Assembly: GCA_026874595.1 (NCBI GenBank)
Contig: CM049310.1
Span: forward strand, 79,167,056-79,231,055
Source of the DNA: Sipunculus nudus
Taxonomy: Eukaryota; Annelida; Sipuncula; Golfingiida; Sipunculidae
Direction: 5' to 3'
Length of the DNA stretch: 64,000 nucleotides
Shown here piece after piece: positions 13,601 to 63,080 of this stretch. The notes below the pieces were generated by a model. The model saw only the letters and a program-made list of their open reading frames with translations, was not told where the DNA came from and made no database searches. The position numbers were made by a program, and so were the translations under genes. The stretch's first letter is position 1. Every line of letters begins with the position of its first letter.

Positions 13601-16600
13601 CGACAGACCAAACAAACAGTATATGTCTCCCCTCATGTTAGGGGAGACAATTTATATGGACAGTAAAAGTATGTCTGTACAATTAGACAAACTATCCTAA
13701 ATTTGACTTCTAACCTCTTTCTTCAGCTACCATTAATTAAATTCTACTTCTAGGTAATGTATGTAGAAATAAATTTTTGCTTTAGGAGACAAACTCACAT
13801 TTACAGCTCTTGCAGCCATATCCTTGCAGTCCACATACCACTGTGGTTTTAACAATGGTTCAATGATGTCTTTGGAACGGCTAAAATACACAAACATATT
13901 TTAACCCTGGCTTTGGCAAAATTATTTATATTCCAGATGTTATACTGCACTATATCCAGCCATTTACAGATTAAATATATTACTAGTGTACTCTACTGCC
14001 AATCCCTATATTACATTTACTTTTAATTCACTGTGAATTATCAAAAGTTATTGCCACTTTGCTAGACAGAGCAATGAATGCATATCGAAAGTAATATATC
14101 TCATTCTCATTTATCTTAACTAAAACTTATAATTGAAACTTGAAAATTAAATTGCAACAATAGCAAAATAAAACATCATGGAAAAGATGATTAATAATGT
14201 ATGAGTGAAAGTGAGCTAAGAAAAATCCTTTGACAACCATGTTCTTGCTGAGGCTCAAGTTGTACAGCCTTTAACTTCATACTGGAGCATCCCTGCTTAA
14301 TAAATTGTTCCTATTGGTATTTTAAAGAATTTACAAAAATCTCTTATGATGTAAGTAGCAAGTTGATTTCATTAACTCCTCTTTCCCTACCAACAGACTG
14401 AATAATTTTATAAGCAACATTTATCATTCTCACCTGCAGACTGGGACAACCATAGGGTTTTCTTTGGTCTCTCTGTACAGCCCCTTCTCCTTCAATGCTT
14501 CCAAGACAGCCTTCCGAGCATGGAACCTCTTCATACCCTGAATAATTTAAAGGTCTTACAGAACTTACTCTTTTTAAATTTCTGACATCTTTTATGGAAA
14601 TATGAACATTTTCCTTCTGAAAGAGCATCCTTCTGCAAAATAAGGACTAGAAAAATTAACTGAAAAGTCGTTAATTACATTTGCAAATATGTGTAATTGT
14701 AAATGTAATTTGACATTTGAAAGTAATTGTAAATGCAATTAAGTATATTTGATGTAACTGATCCGAGATCTGGCAACAAATGTCAAAATAGTTAATATTC
14801 TGGTATAAGTGTCAAGTCAAAGGCTGTCAAATCCAGGTCTGATTAAATACCATGTTGATAGAGAAGACTGAACGATGAAGACATTTTCACATTTTCTACA
14901 TTTCAGCTTAAAAGTCTTTAAACCTCAGTCTTTTTCAGTCTCTTAAGATAACTTAAATATAAAGAACCTGAACTGGAAAAAAAATATAACTTTTACTAAG
15001 CCTGCTACTGGTAAAGTTTTAATTTGAAATCAAACTCTTTCATTGCTGATGCAACAGTTACAACATTCATGATTTCCAACTCACAGAGAACTGGCCACAG
15101 TCTTTGGTCATGTTGCCATTGTCATCGATGATGGTGATAAGCTCCAGGTTGTTCCTCTTCCCACAGTCGTAATCGTTGTGGTCATGAGCAGGAGTGATCT
15201 TCACAGCACCTGATATATCAAACCCACCCAGTAATTAATGTAATAAACAGGAATAACTGCATTAAAAAATCATGGATTCTTGTTTGGGCTATTTTATGTG
15301 GTTTTCTTGTTTTATCTATTTCCCCTACTGAAAGAAACAGCCAAATTAATACTGAACATAAACACATTCAATATTAAAAATAAAGTATGGATCCCCATGC
15401 CTGACTCAAACCTAATCCTCATAATATGACAATTTTACATCACAGACTCTCTTATTTTTTTTATATATTTTATATTTTTATATAAAATACAGGAAAACAT
15501 AGCTGCCTCACCTGTACCAAAGTTCATATCAACAAAATCATCTGTAACAATGGGCATCTTGCGGTCACAGAACGGATGGATGACAAATTTTCCGTGCAAG
15601 TGCTTGTACCGTTGATCCTCTGGATGGACAGCGACACCAGAATCACCAAGCATGGTCTCAATACGAGTGGTGGCAACAACAATCTCCTCATCTTCAAAAC
15701 AAACATATCATATATATGTACAGTGGAACCCGTTTTAAAGACCACCTCTCTTATAAGACCACCTGTCTATTAAGACCACTCTTGGATGATCTGAAAGCAT
15801 TCACATTGGTTGTAACTGACTTGTCTAACAGGACCACATGTGCATTAAGACCACTTGAAGCCAGTCCAATGGGTGGTCTCACAATACAGATTTTACTGTA
15901 CATGTAAAGATCTCATCCAATAGTAGGCCTACACAAGTGTCATGCGTACATTTACAAATAAACATGGCAAAGTCTACCTAAAATTTTGAAATAACATGTT
16001 ATACTTGTTTGAAAAAAAAAGAATATTACAGTTATATAAGAAATTAAGCCTTTATCATCACCTGCACTTTTCATATGAATCTGCACATGTATACAACTTA
16101 AACTGATATAATATAAGGTATATACTGGTATATATATAGAAATGAAACAAGAGACCCATGGGTCACTGTGCTCAGCTCAAGTTGACCTTGAAGGTAAAAA
16201 TCTATAATAATATCAAATGGAGATAAAGTGGAAGAGGAAAAAGTAATATAGGCCATGGTTGGTTTATATGATTGGTTTGTATTGATGAGTTAGAAACTGT
16301 TGCAAATAATATTTTGTCACCTGACCATGTGTTTCCTAATGTTGAAACTGAAGCATGTGAGCAGTTTATGAACAAATGATCTGTACTATTACCATGATCA
16401 TTAGTTGGCTTTTTGATTAACTGTTGACATTTCAGTAGTAAACACATTTGTTCAATTGAATCTATTTTTTTATAATATATATTATTAAATATATGTATTT
16501 TTTTATTTTATGAAATGTTTACAGTTGACACGTAATTCATTAGTAACATACATACAGGGCAAACAAAGCCTGATCTCCAATTCTGCTGAGGCATGAATAT

Positions 16601-19600
16601 AATGAACAAATGTTTGTATTAGATCCTCATTTTTTAATCACCTCACTTTTTTTATTATAAGTTTATATTTCTATACATTCCAATATAACACATATATCTG
16701 AATATAAAAGTTGATTCATAATTCTCAATTGCATCATCATAAATCTCAATCTTGTCAGATAACACCACATTATACATACAAATGTTTATTTATTTTTTAC
16801 CACAAAAATATATCTTTTTAATCTGCAAAACAATAAATATCTAAAAATAATACTTGATTTAGATTTCACAATTTTAAATTGTGTCTTTGTTTATCCATAA
16901 TGTGCTTCATATTTTATAAATTTAAGCATACTAATGGGCTTTATTATATTTGTTAAAATCATTTAAAAGAAAAATGATTTCTTTAAAAATGCTACATTAA
17001 CACAACATGGCATCTTCTGGATTACACCTTGAATTACTTTTTCAAGGTAATTTTTTTGCATATCGGAGTGGAAACAGCATTACAATTAAGGAGATACAGT
17101 GAAAACAATATAAATTACTGCATAACACTTGGTGGGTTGGGTATGTAAGGGGGGGGGGGGGTTGGGGGGGGGGGGTGATATGAGAATAACTGTCACCTGT
17201 CACAGCAGGGGATCTCCCCCAGTGACTGTAACAAATCAGACACCCTGGCATAGCTGACTTCCAGTGACCTAGAGTAGGACCCTGCATCTGTAATCAAACT
17301 TACTAAAGGAAATGACTACAATAAAGCCTCAAGAAAAAATCAATAACTAGCCTAATTTTTAACCTTTTACTTTCAAATTTCAGATTTAAACAAATAAAAT
17401 ACTTAGGTTTACATGCTGTGAAAATTAAATCAATGGTACTTACAGGAAAAAACGTGCCATGGTCAAAGTTGGGCAAAATTTAAGGTACTGATTTTATTTT
17501 TATGCTCATAACTTAAGAAAATTACAAATTCAGATCTAATTTTGGGTTAACAACTGAATCTTAATTAAACATAGTTATATATGTGGGAAAATAGACTCTA
17601 TTTTCAAAATTTTTCAAGTTAAGTGGGTGAATATTTTTCCTTATTTTTTACAAAGACCATTATGTTGGGCCCATAACTTAAAGAAATTATACTTAACAGA
17701 CTTAATTTCTGGCATGTGCATAGGAATTATATAGAGGAATATTTATGGTAAATATGAGGAAAAACAGATGAGTGGTTTTGATATTAGGCAGTCCTGAAGT
17801 GTGAAAATAGGTTTTTTTTTTTAAATAAAAAATTGAGGTTTTTCCTTAATTTCTCAAAGGAACGAATTTGCAAAGACCCAGTTTCCAGCTTGGTAGGAGA
17901 TCTTGGGAACATCTAACATTATGCCCAATTTTGGATTCCTAGGTCTTACGTTTTCAAAACGTGCCACATCTACGGACGGACAATGGACCACGACTATAGC
18001 TCAGATGACTTATAGTCAGCTGAGCTAAAAAAACAGAACAGTGACAAGATGTAATTTGAATGAAGATGTATCTTCACACAGATTTTGCTGCCATAAAATT
18101 CTTTTGTACCTGATCCTTCAACTTTGTAGGCAAATGACACAAGGACGCCAAATTCAACCTTCTCCTTATATCCTGGCACAGGTAGGAATGTACGTCCCTG
18201 GATCTCTCTCTTGTCCACCTGTAAAACATCAATTAACATTAAGAAAGAAAGAAAGAGAGTAAGGGAGAAAATAAATTAAGGTTAGAACACATTTAAATAA
18301 CCAATCCTACAAATGAACTTACAATTAAAATCAAAACAATCAGAAGAAAAATTGACTGTTTTCTGGGGGATACTGTCCATACTGGTAAAATATTATAAAT
18401 AAAAATAACTATTTTTTTAATAATTACTGTGTTGATTATCAGACATTAGGATACTGGGAAAAAAATTAAATAAACCAAACTGGATAATTTTATTTTCTGA
18501 CATTAGTGATATAAGTGCTAAAATGGTATTTTGGACTGAAACTCTCTTGTCAATCATCTTAGTTCTACAGGGCGCGAGCTAATAATAATAAAGCTATAGA
18601 AGTGTTACAAGATTTTCCACCCTACTGTGCATCAGACAAGATTTTGATCAATTTACCTCTATGTCTGAGATCGCAGAATTGAGGGAACATGACCAGTTGA
18701 CAAGACGATTGCTTCTGTAGATTATCCCAGATTCATGCATCCTGACAAATGCTTCTTTAACAGCCCTGACTAGTTTCTGAAAAGAATCATTTATGATCAC
18801 ATGTAATGCATGAATATCTTCTGACAGCTCAACAAAACCCACCAAGTTACAGAATCTTGAAATAGAGAAAATAAAGCATGGAATACTACAAATAAATGAA
18901 TCAGGTAAACCATCAAGTCTTATTTTTATGCCAAACAACATCTGATCAACTCACTTTATCAGGCAAGAAAATGATAATTATAAAACAATGATTTATAGTT
19001 CAGGTAGTAATGATGCATGCCTTGCTAGCAGTCAGATATCTCAGTGCAACACTTGCACTTGTGTTGCCTTTCAAGCTGAAGCAAAACCAAAATTTATATA
19101 AAACAGTCACTAGATTCCAAGGAGGACAATTACTTTGATGCTATATACATCTATCAATCTAACTGATTACTTACCTCTTAAATTTATAAGTATTTACCAT
19201 CTGCAGCTGTAACTCTACCAGTTATATATCAAAGAAAACTTACTGGGTCCATTGTAAAGCAGGCACGGTCCCAGTCATAAGATCCACCAGACTTCCTTAG
19301 CTGGTGGTAAATCCTGTCTCCTTTTCTGAAATTGAAGCAACATGTTACAAAACCATAAAACATATACCGTAAAAGTCGTTGCAGAAGTCGCGACTTGTAC
19401 TAGGAAATTGAATTCTAAAAACAAGAATTTTCTAGAAAAGTCGGGGTGCGACTTATAATACGTACTTATCCCGTCTCAGTCAGCTTTCCCGGTATATGGA
19501 ACGACGTCAGTTGAGCGATAATATGCGATACCTTTAACCAGTGCTTTGTGACACGTCTATCCCCAATAATTTACACCTTTAACCATCTCTAATGAAAACC

Positions 19601-25600: not shown

Positions 25601-28600
25601 TAATTGGGCTGGTAAGCCTACTCAAGTCGTGATACTAGTAATATGGAGGAATGTATCACAGTGGTCTTGCATCTGGTTGCATTCATATCGTGGTAAATGA
25701 CCCATAATCTCAATATTATGCTTAGAATGGTGAATAAACACAACAGTATACATGTGAGCTCACAACCCAAACTGACACAACGTCTCCATGGACAGAGGTC
25801 CTTTCCTGTATCGCCTGCATATTGCCTGCGTCCTATAACCCGTGTAAGCCATGCTTGTGTTCATGCTGTCATAAATTCAACAAACATGCTGAGGGGTTTA
25901 CCAATGTGCTGGGTTAAGCAGGAACTTTTCTCCCTCATATTTGGTATAATTAGAAAGAACGCAAAAAATGCTAACGAATGGTCTGGTTTATGTTGATTGA
26001 CAGTGTACCTATAGGCCATGAAGGGTTGTCAGAAATAACGAAAATATTTGCATCTTCATAAGGCCTTATAATGCGATCCTCAGACCTAGATGTCATGACA
26101 CTCTGGCACCAGTAATCTGGTCGTAATGCCAGAGGGTTGATATGACGCTAGAATCTTGCAAAAGTAGAGAAACATGTTTAAAATCAACGAGATGTCAACA
26201 GTGAAACAATACAGGAGTTTATAAAATTATTTTTTTAATGAAAAATTAAGTACTATAAAAACAGGTGACCCATGGGTCATGACGCTCAGCTGACTGGGAA
26301 GAGATTTGCAAAAGGAAATTTTATCATCTGACTGGTAGTATATAACCATTCAACTGAAGCATTAAACAGATTAACCAACAGGCTGAGATTGTGTCTGTAT
26401 TAATATATCTCAAAAATAGAGAAAAAATGCGTAAACTAAAAAAAAATACAGGTGGCTCCACCAGTCTGCAGAAACTAATAAAAACACTGAATGGTCAATA
26501 TCCATGCATAGAAGCATGGTGGTCTCTGAATTAGTTGTTCAGATACTTCAGCTTTTGTATCAAATTTTCCATTATTCTGAGGGATACTTTAAAGTCCTAT
26601 AGCTTGAAGGATATGGGTAACAGAGACTTAATTTCAGGTTTCCACAGACACTTTTCATGGGCCTCCTTGCATGACAAGAATGAAGATTCTAGGTCCAGTT
26701 GTTACAATTTGTACCCTGTTGACAGATAACCACATCTTTAAAGGTCTAAAAAATAGAGAAAATAATTTGTAAAAATTTGAAAAAAATAGAGGTGGCGCAC
26801 CAAGTCTGCTGAAACTGATGGAACATGCCATGATCAGTATGTATGCCAAAAATCATGAGCATCAGTGTTGTAGTTATTGAAATACTGGTGTTTTGGATCA
26901 AATTTTTCACTATTCTGGGGGTTACTTTGGGGCCCCATAGCTCGAAAGATATGGGTAGCAGAGACCTAATTTCAGGTTTCCATGGAGATTTTTCATGGGT
27001 CTCCCTGTGTGTAAAGAATGAAGATTCTAGGTCCAGTTTTTATTTTTTTTTGCCATGAAAACAGATGTTCATATCTTTAAAGGTCTCAAAAATAGAGAAA
27101 AAATTTCGAAAAAAAAGCCCGAACAAATACATGTGGTGCCACCAGGCTGCAGAAACTGATGAAACACCTCATGATCAATATGTACCGCAAAAAACCGCAT
27201 ATACGTCGAGAAATTTGTTCCCAAAAAATTAATTCAAGAAAGGGGAGTCGACTTATGTGCGGGTCTAAGCCTGAGGGGCAAAATTTTGCACGAACTTAGT
27301 CAAACTGCCGGCCTGAATGTCTTAACTGATCGACAACTAGATATCAGTTTCCGGTGAAGTCAGGTACACAAGTCCCCCTTTCGGTCCAAAAATACAGTCT
27401 AATTAGGTTTACGAATATTTTTTTTTTTCAAATTTTGACCATTTGCGCTGTTCTTTCACTTGAATAATGCAGTATATTAAAATGTTTGCAATTTACATGG
27501 TTGATGACGACCACGAAATGACCCGCGTCTAGCTATAATGAGCTTCATTCACGGCGATTAAGTACGAGTGCAAGAGGCACGGGTATTGCGTAATCAGTTG
27601 GGATTTTATCCAGGGCATCGGCCCCTGTGTATTTGACATCCAATAACGTTACAGTATTTCCCCACAAAAACATTTGGTGCTTGCATAAGTTTGCAAACAT
27701 GTAAACGGTAAAAGCCTGTGGGCCGTGGTATCTGAACTACAGACAGGTGACAGAAGGCTGATTACAGCACCGATTAGCGCTCACTCGGTACGGGGATGGC
27801 TGCCTGTCCCAAGAAGCCCAAACTAGGTCACGCTGTTCACCTGTGTACTTACACGCGGGGGAAATTATCACTCCGTTCGGAAGTTCCTACTTAAAAATCA
27901 CCCCAAATCGTAGTGAATGACTGCGGCACTGAGCAAAGCTCGGGAAAAAAAAATAGACCGAAGCTCAACCTGACATCGATATCGCTATGAACAAACGAAC
28001 ACAAAACCTGCAAGACTTAGACAAAATTAGTACTCCACAGAATGTGAAATATATGATTCATTCACGAAAACTTTCATCAAAAAGATAGGAAAACGGAGTT
28101 TGATCAAAGAACGACTGTCGTGTTGTCCACGTGTTGCCCTGGCTTCCGTGCTCTCACTATGCGGTTCGCTATGCTGGATACCTACGCTGCATATATGCAG
28201 TTATATCGCATGTAATTGTTCATAAGTGCGTCCGTCTGTGGAGGCAAGGAAGACCGGAGTTAATTAAAACTTAAATAAAACTGTCGTTTACGGCCTTGTG
28301 TTTTCTCAGAATGTATAATAAAAATCATAAAATTCCTGCCCTTGATCCACGGATATGACCAAGCTGAGGACAGCTTACACTGTCACGCGGCCTTTTCAGG
28401 CGACTCGCTTGGTCGCGCGTTCTTTTCAATTTAGATTATATAAAATGTAGAGAAGTCTGCGACAATCCTGTTTAAGTAACACGCTTAAATAATCATGGTT
28501 TAATTGATATCTGACACAAAAAAATCATTAGAAGTTTAAAATAAATGAGCAATGACGGAAAGTGTGAGAAATCCTTGGCTGTTCTATTATCGCGCACCTG

Positions 28601-30944
28601 CCGATTCTGGGTGTCAGACGATCTTCATTTCTGCAAAATACCTTAAGTATCGACCTGTTATATTTATTAATCTTAGAGTCTTTATGATGCCCAATAACTT
28701 TTAAATAGATTGCACAACAAAACAAATGACATTTTTACAGTTAAAGAAAATTGGAGTGGTATGAATGTCAAAAACGAGTGGCCAGCCATACAATTCACCT
28801 TTCCCCAGTGGCCTGTCACACTACTCTCGATGGTCATGTATGCTGCTTCAGACCTGTTTAACCTCCAGAATGGCTTAAAAAAAATTTTTACCTGATATTT
28901 ACCCTGAAAATTCATACTCGACGTATATGCGAGATCGACTTATATGCGAGTTTTTACGGTATGCCAAAAATCATGACCATCAGTGATGTATTTAATCAGT
29001 TATTGAAGTTTTTTTATGAAATTTTTTACTATTCTGGGGGGGTACTTTGGGGCCCCATAGCTCTAAGGATATGGGTAACAGAGACCTAATTTTTGTTTTC
29101 CTTGCTGACTTTTAATAGCTCTCTCAGAATGTCAAGAATGAAGATTCTAGGTCCAGTCTTTACGATTTGTGCCCTGTTAACAGATGTTCACTTTTTTAAA
29201 GGTCTCAAAAATAGAGTAAACAAATCGTAAAAAAACGAAAAATACAGGTGGCGCCACTAGTCTGCAGAAACTGATGAAACATCTCATGTTCAATATGTAT
29301 CCAAAAAATCATGACCATCCGTGATGTAATTAATGAGATATTGAAGTTTTTGTATGAAATTTTTCACTATTCTGGGGGGTACTTTGGGGCCCCATAGCTC
29401 GAAAGATATGGGTAACAGAGACCTAATTTTTTGGTTTCCATGGAGACTTTTCATAGGGCTGTCAGAATGAAGATTGTAGGTCCAGTCTTTACGTTTGTGC
29501 CCTGTTAACAGATGTCCACATTTTTAAAGGTCTCAAAAATAGAGAAAACAATTCATAAAAAATTGAAAAATACAGGTGGCGCAACCAGTCTGCAGAAACT
29601 GATGAAACATCTCATGATCAATATGTATGCCAAAAATCATGACCATCAGTGATGCAGTTAATGAGATATTGAAGTTTTTGTATGAAATTTTCCACTATTC
29701 TGGGGGGTACTTTGGGGCCCCATAGCTCGAAAGATATGGGTAACAGAGACCTAATTTCTGGTTTCCATGGAGTTTTTTCATAGTTCTCTCAGACTGTCAA
29801 GAATGAAGATTCTAGGTCCAGTCTTTACGATTTGTACCCTGTTGACAGATAACCACATCTTTAAAGGTCTCAAAAATAGAGAAAATAATTTGTAAAAATT
29901 TGAAAAAAATAGAGGTGGAGCCCCCAGTCTGCAGGAACTGATGGAACATCTCATGATCAATATGTATGCCAAAAATCATGACCATCAGTGATGTAGTTAA
30001 TGAGATATTGAAGTTTTTGTATGAAATTTTTCACTATTCTGGGGGGTACTTTGGGGCCCCATAGCTGGAAGGATATGGGTAACAGAGACCTAATTCCAGG
30101 TTTCCAAGGAGATTTTTCATGGACCTCTCTGGATGTAAAGTAAGAAGATTCCAGGTCCAGTGGTTACGATTTGTGCCTTGTTAACGGACAGACGGCCGGA
30201 CGGACGACGGACAAAGAGTGATCGCTATAGCTCAGATGACTTACAGTCAGCTGAGCTAAAAACTTGCATCTATGTAACCTGGTAACACAGAGGAGGTATT
30301 TGTTTAAGTGTCTATAATTTTATATATACATAGTTTAAGGAAATATTTAAACATTGAAAAATTAAAAAAAGATGTGTTAACCCCTGGCCATATGTGATTG
30401 CCTGACATAATTTTGTTCAGTATATTACTGGAGATAGCTGGGAGGGGGCGTGGCATCTTGATTCTTAGTTCAGATTTTTTTTTTTAAATCAAACAAAGTT
30501 TACATTTTTTTAAACTGAATAAAACAAATATTCTTTCCTGAAATACCGAAAATCATTATACAAAATTAAACACCCCATATATAATTCACCAAATTCACAA
30601 CATTTTAATGTCAGACTTATTGATCCAACCTAGATTTATATTCCTTTATGATCACTGATCACGAGGCACGGCATAACTAAACAGTGATAAATGATGAATT
30701 TAAAGGGACACACTGGGCGATATTAGAGTAAAAAACTGCTTACATCTTGGGCACCGTCCTTTTTGTTATTTGCTTGTTTGGCCTGCATTTTTTCCTGTTT
30801 TGCCTTGAATTTTTCCAATTTTTCTCTCTTCTTCGCCTCCTTTTTTAGTTGGGCCTCCGTTTTGACCTGATCGCCGGCTCCATCGGCAGCCGGTTCCGTG
30901 GCAGCCGGGTCGGCTGCTGCCTGAGAATTCTGATCGTCTGCCAT
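927..30944 (-). CDS. VARS1: Cytosolic valine--tRNA ligase, complete 27-exon gene
   Basis: Class I aminoacyl-tRNA synthetase that charges tRNA-Val with valine in the cytosol and edits mischarged threonine. Coding exons, in transcript order: 30944-30744, 25386-25314, 24866-24766, 23602-23475, 22871-22707, 19325-19244, 18776-18657, 18218-18110, 15691-15512, 15209-15085, 14537-14434, 13880-13799, 12714-12638, 12193-12103, 11596-11491, 10901-10831, 10332-10207, 9088-8984, 8562-8494, 8008-7930, 7315-7188, 6492-6337, 5786-5580, 4919-4808, 3933-3761, 2387-2238, 995-927. They total 3189 nt (1062 aa plus TAA), with GT-AG and matching phases at all 26 junctions. Visible: Lys/Glu-rich N-terminal extension (about 1-90), HLGH (152-155), NPGCDHAG (179-186), editing-domain VATTR (332-336), WWGHRIP (from 525), KMSKS (661-665), anticodon-binding domain (about 770-960), C-terminal coiled coil (about 991-1062). 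Start: GCCATGG context with an in-frame TAG at 30960-30962 just upstream. Vertebrate VARS1 is about 200 aa longer because of a GST-like domain that is absent here. No mitochondrial presequence is visible, which argues against VARS2. Confidence 0.97.
2238..2387 (-). CDS. VARS1: VARS1 exon 26, coiled-coil arm (aa 991-1040)
   Basis: Encodes [20 protein letters not shown] and a further heptad-like stretch, then [14 protein letters not shown]. This is the C-terminal ValRS coiled-coil arm that contacts the tRNA outer corner. Phase 0 on both sides. Confidence 0.95.
2530..3160. repeat. GC-rich insert with a 111-bp tandem repeat, VARS1 intron 25
   Basis: More GC-rich than the surrounding intron. Two near-identical 111-bp units lie at 2864-2974 and 2975-3085, followed by a broken third unit to about 3110. 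Because 111 is 37 codons, a frame open in one unit stays open through the array on both strands (99 aa plus, 86 aa minus). These frames are a by-product and not a gene. Confidence 0.85.
3761..3933 (-). CDS. VARS1: VARS1 exon 25 (aa 933-990)
   Basis: Encodes [20 protein letters not shown] and [18 protein letters not shown], the small alpha/beta module before the coiled coil. Phase 1 in, phase 0 out. Confidence 0.95.
4624..4669. repeat. (TC)23 microsatellite
   Basis: Uninterrupted TC dinucleotides in VARS1 intron 23; polypyrimidine on the plus strand. Confidence 0.98.
4808..4919 (-). CDS. VARS1: VARS1 exon 24 (aa 896-933)
   Basis: Encodes [20 protein letters not shown]. Phase 0 in, phase 1 out; the donor (T|GTAAGT) splits a Leu codon with the next exon. 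Confidence 0.95.
5580..5786 (-). CDS. VARS1: VARS1 exon 23 (aa 827-895)
   Basis: The longest exon. Encodes [20 protein letters not shown] and [12 protein letters not shown], core of the anticodon-binding domain. Phase 0 on both sides. Confidence 0.97.
6337..6492 (-). CDS. VARS1: VARS1 exon 22 (aa 775-826)
   Basis: Encodes [20 protein letters not shown] and [14 protein letters not shown], the helical anticodon-binding domain. Phase 0 on both sides. Confidence 0.96.
7188..7315 (-). CDS. VARS1: VARS1 exon 21 (aa 732-774)
   Basis: Encodes [20 protein letters not shown] followed by LWNATRFAL, the junction with the anticodon-binding domain. Phase 1 in, phase 0 out. Confidence 0.97.
7930..8008 (-). 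CDS. VARS1: VARS1 exon 20 (aa 706-732)
   Basis: Encodes [20 protein letters not shown], the conserved stem-contact fold after KMSKS. Phase 0 in, phase 1 out. Confidence 0.96.
8494..8562 (-). CDS. VARS1: VARS1 exon 19 (aa 683-705)
   Basis: Encodes [20 protein letters not shown]. Twenty-three whole codons in phase 0. Confidence 0.95.
8984..9088 (-). CDS. VARS1: VARS1 exon 18, KMSKS loop (aa 648-682)
   Basis: Encodes [25 protein letters not shown] (661-665) is the second class I ATP-binding signature. Phase 0 on both sides. Confidence 0.97.
9590..10070. mobile_element. MITE-like repeat, family C (copy 1)
   Basis: In VARS1 intron 17. Shares ordered blocks with 63340-63870: TTTGTTTGTGAGAGTTTCAA at the left, ATCAAAGATTGCTAT, AATGAAAAATAAT, TTCACTTGGGTCCCC, and a right end running AATAG-AAG-AAAC. 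Non-coding and about 0.5 kb. Confidence 0.6.
10207..10332 (-). CDS. VARS1: VARS1 exon 17 (aa 606-647)
   Basis: Encodes [20 protein letters not shown] and [17 protein letters not shown], the Rossmann-fold second half before KMSKS. Phase 0 on both sides. Confidence 0.97.
10831..10901 (-). CDS. VARS1: VARS1 exon 16 (aa 582-605)
   Basis: Encodes [20 protein letters not shown], the conserved D-LDTWFSS block of class Ia synthetases. Phase 1 in, phase 0 out. Confidence 0.97.
11491..11596 (-). CDS. VARS1: VARS1 exon 15 (aa 547-582)
   Basis: Encodes [20 protein letters not shown] and [14 protein letters not shown]. Phase 0 in, phase 1 out. Confidence 0.96.
12103..12193 (-). CDS. VARS1: VARS1 exon 14, WWGH block (aa 516-546)
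   Basis: Encodes [20 protein letters not shown]. The [11 protein letters not shown] block is invariant in ValRS, IleRS and LeuRS type enzymes. Phase 2 in, phase 0 out. Confidence 0.97.
12638..12714 (-). CDS. VARS1: VARS1 exon 13 (aa 491-516)
   Basis: Encodes [20 protein letters not shown]. Phase 0 in, phase 2 out. Confidence 0.96.
13020..13655. mobile_element. GTCTCC-bounded molluscan-type repeat in VARS1 intron 12
   Basis: Begins ATGTCTCCTCTCCATATGGG and ends ATGTCTCCCCTCATGTTAGG with GGGAGACA. It contains three spaced blocks of the form TTGACCTTGA..GGTCA..GGTCACC. It has no long ORF. Its structure fits a dispersed short element; I cannot assign the class. Confidence 0.5.
13799..13880 (-). 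CDS. VARS1: VARS1 exon 12 (aa 463-490)
   Basis: Encodes [20 protein letters not shown], the conserved return to the catalytic domain. Phase 2 in, phase 0 out. Confidence 0.96.
14434..14537 (-). CDS. VARS1: VARS1 exon 11 (aa 429-463)
   Basis: Encodes [20 protein letters not shown] and ends ENPMVVPVC, the C-terminal part of the editing domain. Phase 0 in, phase 2 out. Confidence 0.96.
15085..15209 (-). CDS. VARS1: VARS1 exon 10, editing domain (aa 387-428)
   Basis: Encodes [20 protein letters not shown]. The TPAHD-NDY block holds the conserved editing-pocket Asp. Phase 1 in, phase 0 out. Confidence 0.97.
15512..15691 (-). CDS. VARS1: VARS1 exon 9, editing domain (aa 327-387)
   Basis: Encodes [25 protein letters not shown] is the conserved threonine-rich editing-site motif. 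It continues through [14 protein letters not shown] to [11 protein letters not shown]. Phase 1 on both sides. Confidence 0.97.
15721..15898. mobile_element. 178-bp TA-flanked MITE
   Basis: Flanked by TA (15719-15720, 15899-15900). Ends are CAGTGGAACCC on the left and, as its complement, CAGTAAAATC on the right. The inside repeats AAGACCAC at about 15740, 15760, 15772 and 15848. This is a Tc1/mariner-pogo-type target with no transposase. It lies 30 nt from VARS1 exon 9, on the acceptor-distal side of intron 8. Confidence 0.65.
16147..18028 (+). mobile_element. CTCAGCTGAGC-family element, unique core (copy B1), VARS1 intron 8
   Basis: Left end ACAAGAGACCCATGGGTCAC then GCTCAGCTCAAG; right end GGACGGACAATGGACCACGA then CTCAGATGACTTATAGTCAGCTGAGCTAA, a near-perfect hairpin. 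About 1.9 kb, non-coding, with a G-tract at 17149-17175. It aligns along its length with 43305-45574 and, more weakly, with 61793-63080. Confidence 0.7.
18110..18218 (-). CDS. VARS1: VARS1 exon 8, editing-domain start (aa 291-327)
   Basis: Encodes [20 protein letters not shown] and [13 protein letters not shown], the entry to the CP1 editing domain. Phase 0 in, phase 1 out. The donor lies about 80 nt from the end of an inserted repeat (16147-18028). Confidence 0.96.
18657..18776 (-). CDS. VARS1: VARS1 exon 7 (aa 251-290)
   Basis: Encodes [20 protein letters not shown], then [16 protein letters not shown], leading into the editing (CP1) insertion. Forty whole codons, phase 0 on both sides. 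Confidence 0.97.
19244..19325 (-). CDS. VARS1: VARS1 exon 6 (aa 223-250)
   Basis: Encodes [20 protein letters not shown] followed by ACFTMDP, matching the ValRS core. Phase 2 in, phase 0 out. Confidence 0.97.
19365..21202. mobile_element. 1.83-kb TA-flanked inverted-repeat element, VARS1 intron 5
   Basis: TA target sites at 19365-19366 and 21201-21202 flank perfect 25-bp terminal inverted repeats (19367-19391 and 21176-21200) that start CCGTAAAAGTCGTTGCAG. Extra CGACTTATA / CGACTTGTA boxes follow inside each end. No ORF exceeds 90 aa, so it is non-autonomous. The TA target points to the Tc1/mariner-pogo group. Confidence 0.85.
21695..22672. mobile_element. 0.97-kb TA-flanked element, VARS1 intron 5
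   Basis: TA at both edges. Left end CAGTGAAACTCCCCTAAGCC, right end (complement) AAGTGAAACACCAACTTGAG. Subterminal copies of TTAGTGAGTTG occur near 21750 and 22620, with a variant near 22540. Non-coding; mariner-pogo-like MITE. Confidence 0.65.
22707..22871 (-). CDS. VARS1: VARS1 exon 5 (aa 168-223)
   Basis: Encodes [20 protein letters not shown] and ends [10 protein letters not shown], the near-invariant ValRS catalytic-core block. Phase 2 in and out. It lies just beside a TA-flanked inverted-repeat element (21697-22670) in the next intron. Confidence 0.97.
23475..23602 (-). CDS. VARS1: VARS1 exon 4, HIGH motif (aa 126-168)
   Basis: Encodes [24 protein letters not shown] (152-155) is the class I HIGH signature that binds ATP. 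Ends in phase 2 within a Trp codon (TG|G). Confidence 0.97.
24766..24866 (-). CDS. VARS1: VARS1 exon 3 (aa 92-125)
   Basis: Encodes [20 protein letters not shown] and GFFKPEYG, the conserved segment before the first catalytic motif. Phase 1 in, phase 0 out. Confidence 0.96.
25314..25386 (-). CDS. VARS1: VARS1 exon 2 (aa 68-92)
   Basis: Encodes a KKKKDKKER run and then [15 protein letters not shown]. The TYD-PTP-GEKK stretch is the conserved linker at the start of the eukaryotic ValRS catalytic body. Ends in phase 1, donor G|GTAAGT. Confidence 0.95.
26261..30259 (+). mobile_element. CTCAGCTGAGC-family element with 340-bp satellite core (copy A1), VARS1 intron 1
   Basis: Left end holds the 14-bp palindrome TGACCCATGGGTCA (26266-26279) followed by GCTCAGCTGACTG. 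The right end has CGGACGGACGACGGACAAAG, then a hairpin CTCAGATGACTT-ACAGTCAGCTGAG, then CTAAAAA. Between them are about six tandem units of about 340 bp, recognisable by GGGGGGTACTTTGGGGCCCC near 26917, 29036, 29376, 29702 and 30042 and a diverged copy near 26577. One unit is split by the 27185-28959 element. Non-coding. Confidence 0.8.
27183..28961. mobile_element. 1.78-kb TA-flanked element inserted in a satellite unit
   Basis: Left end CCGCAAAAAACCGCATATAC, right end (complement) CCGTAAAAACTCGCATATAA. Imperfect TIRs of about 30 bp with TA on both sides. Neighbouring satellite units show the empty site as AATATG-TA-TGCCAAAA, so the boundaries are exact. Reiterated CGACTTATATGCGAG-like boxes lie near the ends, as in 19365-21202. 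No transposase ORF. Confidence 0.88.
30744..30944 (-). CDS. VARS1: VARS1 exon 1 (aa 1-67)
   Basis: Begins [13 protein letters not shown] and continues into a charged, Lys/Glu/Gln-rich helix ([17 protein letters not shown]). This is the basic N-terminal extension typical of eukaryotic ValRS, often implicated in tRNA binding. It ends in phase 0 at donor GAT|GTAAGC. The following intron (25387-30743) is the longest in the gene and carries the large satellite-bearing element. Confidence 0.96.
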
Positions 30945-38215: not shown

Positions 38216-38700
38216 GTAGTGTAACTCTAGTCCGTTAACCAGGCACAAATTGTGACCACTGGACCTAGATTATTCCTCCAGGGAGGTAAATGAAAAATCT
38301 CCTTGGAAATCTGAAATAAGGTCTCTGTAACCCATATTCTCCGAGCTATAGGGTTCAGAAGTAAGCCCAGGATAATTTAAAATTGGATACAAAAGTTCCA
38401 GTATCTGAATAACTAATGCATAGATCACTATAAATTTTTGCATGAATAATAATCATGGAGTGTTTTATTATTTTCTGCAGACTGCTGGCGCCTCCTGTTT
38501 TTTTCTAATGTTTACGATTTTTTTTAAATTTAGTTTTGGAGAAGTCCAATGCAGCAGTTGTCCATTAAACAGACACAAATTGTAACCACTGGACCTGGAA
38601 TCTTCCTACTTCACATCCAGCGATGTCCCTGAAAAATATCAATTGGAACTTGAACTTAGGTTTGTGTTACCTAGAGTCACTTAATTTATGTGCTTTATGC
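38216..38700 (-). repeat. Reverse-oriented fragment of the 340-bp satellite
   Basis: Read on the minus strand, this carries the satellite landmarks: AGGTCCAGTGGT, CCCTGTT-like, ATATGGGTTACAGAGACC, GCGCCA-CAGTCTGCAG. Neither characteristic element end is present, so it is a relic. It is the only copy in the window in this orientation. Confidence 0.7.
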
Positions 38701-40780: not shown

Positions 40781-41543
40781 TTGTGGAAAAACAATGTTAA
40801 AGAATAGGCATACTATATCTCCTGATTATGTTTCTTTAATATTCTACCACAATCTGTGATAATTTCTGGATAACCATTCAATTTCATTTCTTTTTTTTTA
40901 ATATTGTAAACTTGCAATGAAATTGTTCCAGATTTGTTCAATTGAGTTCGTCATTTATGATAATATTCTACGCCAAGCTCTCTACTATGTTGAGCAGTAG
41001 TCAGTTTGAGACTCCCCCCCCCCCCCCCTTTAACATTGTGGAAAGACAATGTTAAAGAATAGGCATACTATATCTCCTGATTATGTTTCTTTAATATTCT
41101 ACCACAGTCTGTGATAATTTCTGGATAACCATTCAATTTCTTTTCTTTTATTTTTAATATTGTAAACTTGCAATGAAATTGTTCCAGATTTGTTCAAATG
41201 AGTTCGTCATTTATGATAATATTCTACGCCAAGCTCTCTACTATGTTGAGCATTAGTCAGTTTGAGACTCCCCCCCCCCCCCCCCCTTTTAACATTGTGG
41301 AAAGACAATGTTAAAGAATAGGCATACTATATCTCCTGATTATGTTTCTTTAATATTCTACCACAGTCTGTGATAATTTCTGGATAACCATTCAATTTCT
41401 TTTCTTTTATTTTTAATATTGTAAACTTGCAATGAAATTGTTCCAGATTTGTTCAAATGAGTTCATCATTTATGATAATATTCTACGCCAAGCTCTCTAC
41501 TATGTTGAGCATTAGTCAGTTTGAGACTCCCCCCCCCCCCCCA
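40781..41543. repeat. Three tandem ~257-bp units with poly-C junctions
   Basis: Units start at TTGTGGAAA (40781, 41036, 41295) and each ends in GAGACTCC followed by 14-18 C. Units 2 and 3 share variants (CACAGTCTGTG, TTCAAATGAG) that differ from unit 1 (CACAATCTGTG, TTCAATTGAG), so the last duplication made units 2 and 3. Non-coding. Confidence 0.9.
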
Positions 41544-45000: not shown

Positions 45001-45790
45001 TTGTGCAAAATTGAAGGTACTGATTTTATTTTTATGTTAATAACTTAAAAAAATTACAAAATTCAGATCAACTGAATCTTATTTAAACAAAGTTATATAC
45101 TTGGAAATAAGTCTTTAGCTTCAAAAATTTTAATGTTAATTGAGCAAATATTTTTCCTGATTTTTTACAAAGTCAAATATGTTCTAGCCCATAACTTATA
45201 GAAATTACTCTTTACAGTCTTAATTTCTGGCATGAATATAGTAAATAGAAAGGAGAATACTCCTGGTAAATAGTAAAAAAAAAAAAAAAAAAAAAAAAAC
45301 AGATAAGTGGTTTTGATGTTAGGCAGTCCTGAAGTGTGATAATAGGTTTTTAATGGAAATTTGAGGTTTATCCTTAATTTCTTGAAGGAACGAAGTCGCA
45401 GTGACCCAGCTTTTGGTTTGGGGGGGGGGGGGGGGAGATCTTGGGGACATCTAACAGTATGCCGAATTTTGGATTCGTAGGTTTTACGGTTTCAAAACGT
45501 GCTAGTATAACGGACGGACAGACGGACAATGGATCACGACTATAGTTCAGATGACTTATACTCATCTGAGCTAAAAATCGAGAAAAGTCGAAAAAATACA
45601 GGTGGCGCCACCAGTCTGCAGAAACTGATGAAACACACCATGATTAACATCCATGCAAAGGATCAAGGTGATCAATGCATTAGTTGTTCAGATACATGAG
45701 CTTTTGTGTCAAATTTTTCATTAATATGGGGGGTACTTCGGAGCCCCATAGCTTAAAGAATATCGGTAACAGAGACCTTATTCCAGTCTT
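42048..45790 (+). mobile_element. CTCAGCTGAGC-family element with satellite core (copy A2), split by a nested element
   Basis: Left end AACAAGTGACCCATGGGTCA and GACGCTCAGCCGACTG. Diverged 340-bp satellite units follow to 43304 and resume at 45575 after the nested copy B2. The array fades at about 45790 without the usual right end, so it is 3'-truncated. A G-tract near 42543-42560 marks one unit. Confidence 0.7.
43305..45574 (+). mobile_element. CTCAGCTGAGC-family element, unique core (copy B2), nested in A2
   Basis: Left ACAAGGGACCCATGGGTCAC, right CTCAGATGACTTATACTCAT with CTGAGCTAA. The core matches 16147-18028 block for block, for example CAAAGCCTGATCTCCAATTC and the minus-strand Pro-rich frame. 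Flanks AAATAGAGAAAA (43293-43304) and AAATCGAGAAAA (45575-45586) suggest a target duplication or pre-existing similarity. Confidence 0.72.
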
Positions 45791-48130
45791 CAAAGGAGTT
45801 TCATAAGAATTGGTTTGAATTGTATTGTTATGGCGTCATGACAGAAATGAGTTTTCGGTAACATCTGTGGATGCCGTGAACAATGCTTATGTTACTGGGG
45901 TGTTGTACTAGGAACATCAATAAAACACGTGCAGGAAATTGTCATATTTTTTTCTTTATCTGCATGATTGACGAAAGGCTTTGTGTTTAATAGCTCTCCG
46001 TCTTGGATAGTAATACCCGTGTGAAGCTTCATAATTTTCGAATTAACCATGTAAATACATCACTTTGAACTTCATGTGGAAAAATTATAACCTTATTGGC
46101 CGTCATTATATTCGCATGGTATTCACGTGTGAACAAATTGTGAATACCTTTGATTATTTGATTAATTATTTGCAGGAATATGTAATTATATGGTTAAATA
46201 ATTAAAAGCCCGATTCAGAATTTAATTTTAAAATGATTTCAAACCACGTCTTGCCAGGCGCATTTTCAGTAGGAGGTGGCAAAGGATCTCTTGTACACTG
46301 GGGACCGAAGAATATAATTTTTTTCCGACCGCGTGTTATTTCCGTCCTCCTAACTATCCCCTCTCTCCTTCATATAAATGTTTCGCTTAATCCAATTCGA
46401 GGATTCTCTGGGATAGTATTAACGTCAATATCTCACGAAGGTTAAACGCCGACTTTTCGAACTAAGAGAAAGCTTTTTATATATTTATGCATAATGGCTA
46501 TCGAACATTTGACATGTGTAAAAGGTACCAGACGCTTTGGATTTTAAAGGGCAACTTTTGGGAACAGTGGGCAATCCTTAGACTTATATTCGTGCAGTTA
46601 CATAGGCATACTGTTGAAGTATAAAGCCAGCGTTTTGAAAACAAACTCCGGAAATTCCTTAATAGGGTTGATGATATTCAACATTTTTTATATTAATATA
46701 ATAAATAACCGGTCACTTTCGGCCAGCACAGCTGTACGAATTTTCTTTCTCATATTCGTAGTTTATACTTAAATAATCTTGGAAGTAAGTACTTTGCCAA
46801 GAGCATGCAGGCACTTTTATGGCTCCTTTTCATGGCTGCATGGTTAAGTAATGCAGTATTTTGATTGTAATTTCAGGTAATTATGATTTATTCATATAAA
46901 TGGATAAGAGACTATATCACTTTAAGTCTGATTTAGTTTGAGGTACATGGAACGAAATCTTAATTTTTAGATTTAAGTATACTAAATGTTAGTTATTCCG
47001 AGAATTAAGTGGAATGGCGTACTTTTATAATATACTATGTTTTATATAATATTGTTTCATGAAATTAGTGTATATATGCATTTCATATTTCAATGTATTG
47101 CTTGTGAATAAAATAAAATAATATATGTTTATGTAAAGTAAAAATTGCCGCGTGAGGTGATTAGATGGTCCATGCACTCGTTTTTTTTGGATAGACCAGC
47201 TTTGTTCTCTCGCAATCGTTTGATTACACGTTACCGACCGTTACTTTCCGACCTTATGTTTTAGACAGCTTTCATTTATAAAACCAGCACAAGGAAATAA
47301 TGAAAATCTTTGAAAGTGGTCTTCGATGATTTAGTCTCAGTTGGTTCCATAAACAATATACCTGTGTTCCTGTGCAACGCTTCAATTGATCCTTGAATGA
47401 TTAAAAATGTAAGTGTACAAAGGGACTACCGGTCTGTTCTAGCTTAAACGTTTCCGAATCCCCAAGAGCAACTAGAAACATTTCTTCTTGTTAGAATTAA
47501 TCAAGCATGAACACAAGGAGGTGGTATTGGTAAAGTAACGACTGGCGGGTAAACAGATTTTACCGATCTAATCGAAAACACCGCCACTTTACCTTATACA
47601 TCAACACTCCGGTTGAAAGGCTCCAGGGTCTCCCCATTTCATGTTACCCCCCGGGTAATTTGAAATCGATTTCAGATTACCCCAGGGGTAGCTTGGACCT
47701 GATTTTCTGATTTCAAGTCAACCCCGCACTGAACATATACCTATTACCCCCCGACTTTGCTAAATGATAAATTTCTTCAATTTTGTCTAATGATATGTTA
47801 AATGAATAAAACACTTTAAAATACAAGATTTAAAAAAATAGATTTAAAGAACAGAACCAGTATATGAAAAAATATTAATTTAATTTTTATGATTGATTAG
47901 ATTCATATTGATTTCTATTCGTCATGAAAGGGCGTGACGCATAACATACCTGTAAGCGTAAGTCTAATTCAACAAAGCTGAATGACTACATTTACTCCGC
48001 CATTAAGAGCGTAGCATAGTGAAGTTTTACTTAACCTTTAATTTAATTGGAATGGCGTAAGTCATACGAAGTTTCAACCTCACTTTAGAAATGCAGAATA
48101 AAGAACCTGCAATAATTATAAAAAAAGGCC
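45791..48130. other. Intergenic, no gene seen
   Basis: AT-rich. A 70-aa frame (46233-46445) has no recognised motif. No repeat boundaries identified. Confidence 0.35.
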
Positions 48131-53082: not shown

Positions 53083-54072
53083 ACAAGTGACCCATGGGTC
53101 ATGACGCTCAGCTGCAAAGAAAGATTTTCACAAAAGGAATTTTATCATCTGAATGCCAAATTTTGTAGGTGGTGTCCCCATTCAACTAAAGCATAGCTTA
53201 AAGGATATGGGTAACAGAGACCTAAGTTCAGGTTTCCAAAGAGATTTGTCATGGACCTCCCTGGATGTCAAGTAAGAAGGTTCCAAGTGCAATAGTAACG
53301 ATTTGTGCCATGTTAACGGACGACCGCTTCCTTGAAAGTCTGTACAATAAAAGTTTAGAGAAAATGCGTAGAATTTGAAAAATTTGCAGTTGGCGCCACC
53401 AGTCTGCAGGAATTGATGAAACACTTCATGATGAATGTGCTTGCTAAGAATCATGGTAATGAATGCATTATTTATCAAGAAACTGAAGGTTTTGTATTAA
53501 ATATTTAATTACACTGAGGGGTACTTACAAGCCCTATAGCTCAAAGGATATAAGCAACAGAGACCTTATTTCAGGTTTCAAAGGAGACTTTTTATAGACC
53601 TCCCTGGATTTTAATTAGGGAATTTTAGGTTGAATGGTAACGATTTGTTCCCTAGCTGTTAACGGACAACTGCATCTTTGAAGGTCTAAAAAAAGCGTAA
53701 AAATTCGTTAAAAAAAATCCAGGCGGCGCCACCAGTCTGCAGAAACTGATGAAACACTCCATGATGAATATGCATGCAAAGAATCATGGTGACCAATGCG
53801 TTAGTTGTTCCAATACTAGGGCTTTTGTATCAAAATTTTTAATTATTCTTGGGTGAATTTTTGAGCCCCATAGCTCGGAGGATATGGGTAACAGAGACCT
53901 AATTTCAGTTTCCATGGAGATTTTTCATGGAACTCCCTGGAAGTTAGAAGATTACAGGTCCAGCGGTTACGATTTGTATTTGGTTAACAGACAGACAGAC
54001 GGGAAAACTGACAGACGGACGACGGACAAAAAGTGATCGCTATAGCTCAGATGACTAACAGTCAGCTGAGCC
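53083..54072 (+). mobile_element. CTCAGCTGAGC-family element with satellite core (copy A3)
   Basis: Left ACAAGTGACCCATGGGTCAT (palindrome 53088-53101) and GCTCAGCTG. About two and a half satellite units follow. Right end GACGGACGACGGACAAAAAG, then CTCAGATGACTAACAGTCAG and CTGAGCC. A shorter version of 26261-30259 with the same two ends. Confidence 0.78.

Positions 54073-54856: not shown

Positions 54857-54905
<49 letters not shown>
54857..54905. repeat. (TA)24 microsatellite
   Basis: Uninterrupted TA run. Confidence 0.97.
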
Positions 54906-54908
<3 letters not shown>

Positions 54909-55544: not shown

Positions 55545-56000
55545 CCCGCAGCAGTTACACACTGCGGTCATCCAAGAAATCCTTTCGTGTAACCGCTGCA
55601 TTGTATGGCAAGGATCTCTTGGCATAAAGACCAGGGATCGCACAGAGCACAGAATTGTAATCAGACAGCTAAATGCATGGTAATGCATTGTGTATCCAGA
55701 CAAAATTTTAAACATGCGACACCCGCTCTCGTTGGTGTGATTACAGCCGGACACAAGCTCTCATTGGTTTGATTTTTGGCTCTATGCCAGAACAGGTGTT
55801 AATTATCAGACCAACGAGAGCGAGTGTCGCAGGTTAAAATTTTTACTGGATACATAATGCAATACCAGACATTCAAAGGTCTGATTACTATTCTGTGCTC
55901 TGTGCACACCCTGGTGTTCATGCCCAGAGAACCTTGCAATACAAAGCAGCGGTTAAAAGAAAGGATGTCTTGGATGACTGCAATGAATAACCGCTGCGGT
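55545..56000. repeat. Long imperfect inverted repeat (foldback)
   Basis: Arms 55545-55742 and about 55806-56000 are reverse complements at roughly 80% by eye, separated by about 63 bp. Shared blocks include CTGTGCTCTGTGC, CCAACGAGAGCG and TTGGATGAC. The arms are open in the corresponding frame on opposite strands (55524-55754 minus, 55824-56018 plus), with similar peptides around LITILCSV. Confidence 0.8.
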
Positions 56001-56219
56001 AGCAGCGCAATAAAATGATGACTAAACGGATTTTAATTGAGTGGTTCTTTGCCAGGGCTGCACCAATAAGTATATTAGCCCTCGGCTGGAGTCAAGCTAA
56101 GCTTATTCTGAATTTAACTGGAGATATCCCCATGGTTCTTTTAATCTATTCTGGCAATAAATCTACCAGATCACAGAAAAGTAAGTCTTGTTTTTCACAC
56201 TGTTTACATGTCTAACAGA

Positions 56220-59440: not shown

Positions 59441-59445
59441 GGGAG

Positions 59446-61792: not shown

Positions 61793-63080
61793 AGAGTACC
61801 ATGGGTCACGGGGCTCAGCTGAATTTGTCTATGACATTAATTTTATCAAATCCTGAAATACAGGAAAATTGATTTTTATATTGCTGCACTTGTAACTCCT
61901 CATGTTACAGCCATTTGGCAATATTATTAATAAATCTGTCCTGCATGTTTAGTCTCCTATCTCGTAGTTCCATATAAATGTTACGTTGCTTGGACACCTA
62001 CGATGATTATACATGCTAAGACTGGTGATTATCCAATACATGTTTGTATTAGACCCAAGTTTTATTTTATGAGTTGTTTTCAATTTTTTAGATCATAATT
62101 CTGTTATATATAAAAAATTCCAGAAAATATCAGTTAATTCAGAATTTTAAAATATTTAAAGATGCATTGTCAGAGAGAATGAAAGACAAAGCTGATTCCT
62201 GTATGTCCCATTCTGCTGAGGCTAGAAAATATTTCAAGTTTACATTTTAGCTTATTATTCTTATCATATATCTTAAAACATAAGATGATTCAGAACTATA
62301 AGTTGCATCATCACTTTTCCCCAGTTTGCCTCATGTAAAGTCAAATTATGTACACATATGTATTTGATGTTTTTTTAAATAATCAAATTTTTAAGCTTAA
62401 TCTAGGAGATTTTTTTTTTTTAAATGAAATTACCCAAAATTATATAAAGACACGTACAACATGGTTTCTTCTTTGTCACTACTTAGATCACTATTTCAAA
62501 AATGTTGTGTCCATTGGAGTGGAAAGAGGATTTTAATTTACAATACATGCTTAATTTATCATCTAAAATAAATGGTTCAGTAAAATTTATTAAAAACTCC
62601 CTTTCATGTCCGACAGACACACAGTCAGTTGAAACGGGATAAACAATATCATCATACATTTAAATGTTAATTAAATAAAGGTGTGTGCTAGAAAAAAATT
62701 TCTAGCTTGAACAGTTACCATGTAATGTGAGTAAATATCTCTCCTTCTGTGCTGAACCAGTTAGGTCCAAACTTCTTCAAATTATGGCAAATACATAGTA
62801 AACATAAAGAGGAACTGTCATATCAAATATGAACAAAACTGCAACAGCCGTTTAGCAATTAGGCAATATTTAAGTGTAACAATAATTGTTAGATAGAAGA
62901 GGTTGTCCCTTAATTTCAATGAAGTCGCATTGACCCAGTATTTGGTTTGGTGGAAGAACTTAGGAACACCTTACTTTACATTAAATTTCAGATTCGTAGA
63001 TCCAACGGTTACAAAACGTGCCCTGCTAACAGACGTCCAGTCGGACGAACGTCCGACAAAGATTTTTCGCTATAGCTAAA
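61793..63080 (+). mobile_element. CTCAGCTGAGC-family element, unique core (copy B3, diverged)
   Basis: Left ACCATGGGTCACGGGGCTCA and GCTG. The core includes CCATTCTGCTGAGGCTAG and GACCCAGTATTTGGTTTGGT, and the right part GTCCGACAAAGATTTTTCGC with CTATAGCTAAAAA. The last hairpin is degraded. It matches B1 and B2 in block order. Confidence 0.6.

Follow-up and report, generated by a model that had tools for sequence, protein, structure and literature searches.

Non-autonomous Helentrons of Sipunculus nudus share both ends with a coding Helentron and keep a local orientation that may trace replication forks

A 64,000-nucleotide stretch of the Sipunculus nudus genome (the window; contig C5:79167056-79231055) carries six mobile elements, E1 to E6, which combine similar ends with different interiors and all lie on the minus strand. 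What do such ends serve, and what sets their common orientation? We found that the six elements are non-autonomous Helentrons (HINEs) and that both of their ends recur on a Helentron of this genome that encodes a Rep-PIF1 helicase-endonuclease. Across 0-17.6 Mb of contig C1, element polarity is largely local, staying constant over ~100 kb on average (~500 kb at 0-4 Mb), and is shared with a second family whose ends are dissimilar. The common orientation, which the original prediction for this locus had called notable, proved the most informative point. Taken jointly, HINEs, shared ends, local polarity and single-strand insertion coupled to replication forks form the best explanation, in a judgment tipped only slightly to the favorable side of even.

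The elements and their parts in the window are as follows.

16147-18026, minus strand: E1, a HINE whose core is of the second, non-satellite kind, running from 18026 (5′ end) to 16147 (3′ end)
16153-16165, minus strand: palindrome near the 3′ end of E1
26267, 42054, 43311 and 53089: the same palindrome in other elements; also at 61796 with 2 mismatches
26261-30257, minus strand: E2, a HINE with the satellite core, running from 30257 (5′ end) to 26261 (3′ end)
42048-43304, minus strand: 3′ portion of E3, satellite-core HINE split by E4
43305-45572, minus strand: E4, second-core HINE nested in E3; its joined flanks restore a satellite unit, with no target duplication
45573-45804, minus strand: rest of the E3 satellite past E4; no 5′ end recognized
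53083-54072, minus strand: E5, short satellite-core HINE with both ends present
61793-63077, minus strand: E6, diverged second-core copy whose 5′ hairpin is internally deleted
38226-38673, plus strand: satellite fragment without ends, in the opposite orientation

Because of this last fragment, six of the seven satellite or element copies recognized in the window share an orientation, rather than six of six.

Read along the minus strand, the elements of the window have the form TTTTT/AGCTCAGCTGACTATAAGTCATCTGAGCT ... CAGCTGAGCGTCATGACCCATGGGTCACTTGT/TT, with variation (a slash marks the element boundary). The 5′ end of the HINEs is TTTT/AGCTCAGCTGACT..AGTCATCTGAGCT and the 3′ end is CAGCTGAGC-GTCA-TGACCCATGGGTCA-CTTGT/TT, with a hairpin at the 5′ end, a CCATGGG palindrome close to the 3′ end and Ts on either side of the element. 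GCTCAGCTGACT, found at one end, and AGTCAGCTGAGC, found at the other, form an inverted repeat. These subterminal inverted repeats (subTIRs), AGCTCAGCTGACT at the 5′ end and CAGCTGAGC near the 3′ end, are lost from the 5′ end of E6 and were not found for the 5′ end of E3. All six predicted starts are present, and the palindrome TGACCCATGGGTCA, 5 nt from the 3′ terminus, is full or partial in each. Also as predicted, four elements share the right-hand hairpin (those starting at 16147, 26261, 43305 and 53083, with few substitutions in the latter two copies); the element at 61793 has a hairpin without the central part (TTTTTAGCTATAGCG). Allowing up to 3 mismatches, the pattern GACCCATGGGTCA has 22 matches on the two strands of the window, a number reached by none of 100 shuffled sequences (11.5 ± 3.9). 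Genome-wide, the 3′-end motif GACCCATGGGTCANNNNGCTCAGC matches exactly at 18,140 places in 1.43 Gb (9035 forward, 9105 reverse) and nowhere when read backwards as a control. We refer to the elements with this motif as family 1.

This layout agrees with published Helentron structure, in which one subTIR adjoins the 5′ terminus and a second subTIR and a palindrome lie near the 3′ terminus (PMC4067079). It likewise agrees with the oyster element Cg_HINE, described with a subTIR and inverted repeat (IR) at the left end and a subTIR and palindrome at the right (PMC7492417). Assignment to non-autonomous elements of Helitron/Helentron type therefore stood, as the Helentron type, while the predicted direction of reading did not. 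The hairpin followed by CTAA or CCAA had been taken for a Helitron 3′ end with CTRR; it is instead a Helentron 5′ end beside a T-run, read on the other strand. The true polarity is the reverse of that first reading, as shown by coding copies with 5′ ends (L026-L028) and 3′ ends (L004, L016-L018, L020) so oriented. A canonical Helitron, with 5′-TC, CTRR-3′, A/T insertion and no inverted repeats, was also considered and rejected: the ends here are AGCTCAG... and ...CTTGT, with a TT target and subTIRs.

The HINEs insert into T-runs, and at the one nested site tested they did so without target duplication. A T-run precedes the 5′ end in all five elements for which this end is shown, and TT follows the 3′ end in four of five (E6 is diverged). 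Of the comparison of filled and empty sites that the original prediction had proposed, E4 is the sole site tested for duplication: once joined, its flanks align 26 times with satellite units, and 19 of these alignments cross the junction; there is no duplication beyond the ambiguity of the A/T-run. The elements at 42048 and 43305, predicted as separate, both exist, the second (43305-45572) lying within the first and not beside it. The E3 satellite resumes at ~45573 after E4 and ends near 45804, with no 5′ end found in the 1.9 kb beyond. Of the predicted three satellite and three unique cores, the satellite trio stands; the remaining three look like one diverged second core family, E1 and E4 being 80% identical and E6 ~66% identical to this core over its best 209-262 bp.

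The proposed search for a Rep/helicase copy with the same ends turned up a Rep-helicase-endonuclease Helentron of 15-16 kb. In its copy on contig C17 (L004), an open frame of 2298 aa lies on a strand that reads toward CAGCTGAGCATCATGACCCATGGGTCACTTGT ~1 kb past the stop. Among eight further endonuclease loci, four (L016, L017, L018, L020) have the same type of 3′ end ~1 kb downstream, two (L019, L021) have a GGCC-palindrome variant ~0.5 kb downstream, and two that are 98% identical to each other (L014, L015) have no 3′ end in the stretch examined. The 5′ end TTTTTAGCTCAGCTGACT is present in all three copies followed far enough, and there alignments between copies stop and the flanks differ; a fourth copy (C10) was followed over a shorter distance. 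Lengths are ~14.9 kb (C17) and ~16.3 kb (C9), and the C17 copy is the one seen with both ends and the long open frame. Pfam searches of L004 and L005 recovered Helitron_like_N, PIF1, DUF6570 and Herpes_teg_N, with PF14214 and PF05970 in L004, L005 and L001. The endonuclease domain matched PF14529 (Exo_endo_phos_2, 7e-8) in L005 and PF03372 (Exo_endo_phos) below cut-off in L004. Rep motif 2, RGSPHxH, occurs in the three proteins scanned (VEFQQRGSPHIH in L004 and L005, IEFQARGSPHAH in L001); its S between G and P is the form given as diagnostic of Helentrons in PMC4067079.

The leader of the coding element holds the satellite of E2, E3 and E5, whose best alignments to it are 77-83% identical. 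As predicted, then, the ends are common to elements with different interiors, be it satellite or second core, and they also bound the coding element. Because a coding Helentron of the same genome has both ends, the ends are the shared substrate and the core is variable. We infer that the coding element, putatively autonomous, moves the HINEs, and the C17 copy may itself be active.

Other coding loci and composite structures accompany this element. A second coding family (L001-L003) has an OTU domain and no Herpes_teg_N match (Pfam, L001 alone scanned), carries peptide repeats at its N-terminus, and showed no recognizable element ends. Several dozen loci (e.g. C10:17517356, C11:56094985) gave an equal score, with a frame of up to ~5360 aa, part of which matches the Helentron tegument-type N-terminal domain at ~42%; they are apparently a recent repeated element. 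In L026, L027 and L028, a second 5′ end follows the satellite of the leader, and L016 has two 3′ ends 45 bp apart; these are composites formed by self-insertion or end bypass.

To describe orientation, we used for each sequence pattern the first 100 places among its matches. Totals were 18140 for the general family-1 pattern, 826 for a GGCC-ended pattern, 3551 for family 2 and 1302 for a long interspersed nuclear element (LINE) motif, and 1074, 7234, 4767 and 17553 for the remaining patterns. The general pattern includes the variants CTGT, TGAC and CGGC. Dense lists span the first 4-24 Mb of C1; the CTGT, GGCC and LINE lists run along C1, the latter two into C2. Before counting, 8 of 100 LINE and 9 of 100 GGCC places (on C2) were dropped, and the CTGT list was reduced to 26 of 100 for comparison with TGAC.

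Among the first 100 of the 18,140 family-1 places (C1:0.06-4.33 Mb), 85 are on the plus and 15 on the minus strand (binomial p 2e-13, runs z -4.6), against 9035:9105 in the whole genome, and 47 of 48 listed elements in C1:0.06-1.17 Mb agree in strand. Listed TGAC and CGGC places also form runs (z -3.9 and -3.7), and for CTGT, listed over 100 Mb, 36 of 51 adjacent pairs closer than 500 kb agree (p 0.004). Between the CGGC and TGAC variants, strands agree in 15/17 pairs below 10 kb, 23/24 at 10-30 kb and 54/79 at 30-100 kb, or 38/41 below 30 kb and 91/119 below 100 kb (circular-shift mean 0.49; none of 2000 shifts as high). Restricted to positions past 4 Mb, these distance classes yield 9/11, 10/11 and 33/57; strand correlation thus generally reaches over tens of kb, and the very long domain is peculiar to the left end of C1. 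Pairs are not mutually independent, and circular shifts and a two-state model serve as the tests. Fitted to both families over 4-17.6 Mb (n = 220), this model gives a mean domain of 99 kb with 3% exceptions and a doubled log-likelihood difference (2dlnL) of 58.6, the highest value among 20 shuffles, fitted on a coarser grid, being 3.2. Thinning to spacings of at least 15 kb and at least 30 kb leaves 2dlnL at 23.8 and 18.4, and the mean domain over 0-4 Mb (n = 107) is 505 kb. Within strong domains, 13 stretches of 10 kb added 8 inexact ends, of which 7 had one mismatch and 1 had three; each lay on the strand of its domain.

Family 2 has the layout of family 1 with dissimilar ends: GTATCCGCCAAAACGAAGTTTTGCGGATAC at the 5′ end, and TTTTGGCGGATAC and a palindrome GTAGTCG..TGTCGACTAC at the 3′ end. 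In L033, L038 and L040 the two ends are found in the same sense. Three copies compared by blastn with family-1 elements and the coding leader gave no match better than E 0.005; family 2 is HINE-like by structure only. Its 3′ pattern has 1747 + 1804 matches genome-wide and none in the control. We compared 73 of the 100 listed family-2 places with 254 merged family-1 places below 17.6 Mb, excluding the GGCC family from family 1 here and in the two-state model. Element sense agrees in 19/19 pairs below 10 kb, 38/44 at 10-30 kb and 52/60 at 30-60 kb, then in 45/77 at 60-100 kb, 99/192 at 100-200 kb and 438/909 at 0.5-1 Mb. Nearest family-1 neighbors within 100 kb agree for 50 of 64 family-2 places, a value reached by none of 5000 circular shifts, and beyond 4 Mb for 41 of 54 (p 0.0002). 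The two families reverse together near 1.23, 1.52 and 1.62 Mb, and by our own reading four of five family-2 copies in the 13 strong-domain stretches follow their domain. The choice of strand is largely bound to the locus and common to dissimilar ends, and is not explained by nesting or duplication alone.

Copying of one orientation by tandem or segmental duplication, local hopping or end-bypass composites is a further possibility. Tandem Helitron insertions are described for several species (PMC5148889), composites of this kind occur here (the paired 3′ ends of L016, the second 5′ end in the leader), and tandem arrays lie in the left 1.2 Mb of C1. Such amplification is nonetheless hard to reconcile with agreement across subfamilies and dissimilar-end families at 10-60 kb, and although stretches of the leftmost domain share long sequence, its assignable part is element sequence; we regard local amplification as very improbable. 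Self-nesting as the sole cause of the common orientation was rejected: a similarity search of the window found no Helentron similarity beyond the six elements, the E3 remainder and the 38226 fragment, so apart from E4 the window elements are not visibly nested, and the signal on C1 survives thinning. Separately, Helentron hits at C1 65.88-65.92 and 66.82-66.86 Mb match in opposite orientation, suggesting an inverted duplication.

Target polarity offers another route to shared strands, if T-rich sense-strand targets vary regionally or if elements enter the T-rich strand of older Helentrons. E4 does lie in a satellite T-run in the orientation of its host copy E3, and a family-2-like element, with a 3′ end that differs from the pattern searched, occupies a fixed place in coding family-1 copies (L006/L022, L007/L023, L008/L024) in the same sense. 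By local majority, 53 of 81 T12 tracts are on the element-sense strand (3 of 99 circular shifts reach 53), and TA skew leans the same way. The tracts themselves form no significant runs (z -1.35, 2dlnL 2.0), and their agreement with the nearest element within 100 kb (51/87, p 0.13) is far weaker than that between elements. With the window elements other than E4 not visibly nested and the signal surviving thinning to at least 30 kb, target polarity seems an unlikely cause.

Transcription could also set the strand, by exposing the displaced non-template strand (R-loops, negative supercoiling) or by selection against one orientation in introns. One host gene was recognized in the window:

930-30959, minus strand: host gene around E1 and E2, tRNA-synthetase exons (Pfam Anticodon_1, 2e-13)

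We take the synthetase to be of the valyl type. E1 and E2 are each flanked by its exons and point in the sense of the gene, and an immunoglobulin (Ig)-domain exon in L038 is likewise co-oriented with local elements. Same-strand gene runs could, on general reasoning, span ~100 kb, and supercoil-melted DNA is mentioned by the Helraiser authors as a possible single-stranded source (PMC4778049). Three observations speak against transcription. Around E3-E6, ~11-32 kb upstream of the first exon seen, a weak composition screen recognized no exon on either strand. In C1:0.06-1.17 Mb, where strand agreement is nearly complete, two of eight sampled 10-kb stretches are tandem arrays and the best-scoring open reading frames (ORFs) of the other six gave no recognized host gene, again by a weak screen (composition-based, top 5 ORFs per stretch, 10 ORFs taken to Pfam, L032 and L034 left out). 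Finally, full agreement of the families below 10 kb would require nearly all copies to lie in transcribed DNA. We consider transcription rather unlikely, if the most credible of the alternatives. For the left end of C1, forks that run to a putative chromosome end are a better fit than transcription, within the reach of this gene screen.

Near that contig end, at C1:0.2-0.8 Mb, the tandem arrays of L030, L032 and L034 have periods of 67, 118 and 64 bp and strand skew. The window has repeats of its own: a 454-bp segment at 55546-55999 that is its own inverted repeat at 78%, and ~98% identical units of 259 bp (three copies, 40780-41542) and 111 bp (two copies, 2863-3085).

Fork-coupled insertion, as in IS200/IS605, would run as follows. 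Rep would join one transposon strand into single-stranded target DNA, and a directional host process would set the target strand, most likely through the lagging-strand template exposed at replication forks; orientation would then record germline fork direction. Animal replicon arms are commonly ~100 kb long. For IS200/IS605, the orientation pattern is attributed to preferred insertion into the lagging-strand template (PMC5371812), and the Helraiser authors name replication as one possible source of single-stranded DNA and supercoiling as another (PMC4778049). Insertion into the lagging-strand template is the explanation we favor, at about an even chance. A fuller version, which we place a little below even, is that two Helentron families enter this template, so that their orientation may form a fossil map of germline replication with ~100-kb replicon arms; the process would then be a eukaryotic counterpart of IS200/IS605 fork-coupled transposition.

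LINE reverse-transcriptase motifs (92 places on C1) served as a control and form no orientation runs (z -0.6, 2dlnL 1.9); they show no relation to Helentron strand (7/13 nearest within 100 kb, 26/51 pairs within 100 kb), and ~1/10 of them may be chance matches since the reversed control gave 140 matches against 1302.

Several results weigh against fork-coupled insertion. The GGCC-ended family (GGCCCATGGGCC ends; pattern TGGCCCATGGGCCATGACGCTCAGCTG, 412 + 414 matches), with ends that relatives of the coding element also carry (L019, L021), has no orientation runs of its own (z +1.4) and agrees with family 1 on C1 in only 15 of 26 cases within 60 kb and 6 of 12 within 10 kb; two of these 26 rows may stem from one inverted duplication (C1 near 65.9 and 66.8 Mb), and against the CTGT variant 18 of 24 pairs within 100 kb agree. 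Alone, the CTGT list (runs z -1.5) and family 2 (n = 100, 2dlnL 6.6) are weak. Agreement between families 1 and 2 does not decay cleanly, standing at 244/389 (63%) at 300-500 kb, and some pairs closer than ~10 kb may be nested, because of the family-2-like element inside coding copies. The LINE control is sparse, with few close pairs, which limits it at close range. In element sense, there is no GC skew (0.001 ± 0.013) and a weak TA skew (+0.019 ± 0.011), in 16 pieces that exclude the final 4 kb of the window as well as L030, L032 and L034, which consist mostly of tandem arrays. Both of the two recognized host genes are co-oriented with local elements, which fits transcription equally. The dense map covers the start of one contig, C1, in one genome, and a genome-wide sample of a rare variant (23 places, judged by eye) showed no clear chromosome-end rule.

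Should the locus set polarity for several families at once, fork-coupled insertion could be tested against transcription-coupled insertion in any well-assembled genome with thousands of Helentrons. Such genomes might also yield a map of germline fork direction for species that lack a measured one. In the literature searched, with subscription papers mostly outside its scope, we found no earlier report of Helitron or Helentron orientation domains; nor are they reported in the portions available of PMC5371812, PMC5876387, PMC4778049, PMC13286980, PMC5148889, PMC9741609 and PMC10030826.

The elements themselves are new members of the known Helentron/HINE class. Like Cg_HINE of Crassostrea gigas (PMC7492417), they are non-autonomous Helentrons with a 5′ subTIR and IR, a 3′ subTIR and palindrome, central satellite repeats, T-rich targets and no target duplication; Cg_HINE 'group 2', with related flanks and unrelated repeats, resembles their exchange of cores. 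The predicted likeness to the bivalve pearl type holds at the level of architecture, with satellite cores like those described for pearl/Cg_HINE elements. In contrast to the oyster, where none of 10 autonomous elements could be related to the Cg_HINEs, a coding partner here has the same ends and the satellite in its leader; this addresses the gap left for oyster HINEs, as a candidate for the present genome only. Cg_HINE insertions are described in both orientations, with no preference for chromosomal segments and no domain polarity, in the same partial source.

Mite and Drosophila Helentrons and HINEs (DINE-1; PMC4067079) share the subTIRs, near-3′ palindrome, T-rich target, the S of RGSPHxH, the PIF1 helicase and a C-terminal AP-type endonuclease. 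Differences are the satellite in the leader of the coding element of S. nudus and the spacing of the 3′ end, which is shorter here (palindrome 5 nt and subTIR ~23 nt from the terminus, compared with 8-35 and 38-60 in the mite). A Herpes tegument-type cysteine protease domain within the ORF is common to the VTD-containing Helentrons, reported from molluscs too (PMC9741609). IS200/IS605 (IS608, ISDra2) and Tn7-TnsE are bacterial systems whose fork direction is known, where ours is inferred, and no kinship is claimed. What the elements of S. nudus have in common with them, going by PMC5371812, is that copy orientation follows a directional property of the chromosome, which in IS200/IS605 goes together with single-strand transposition.

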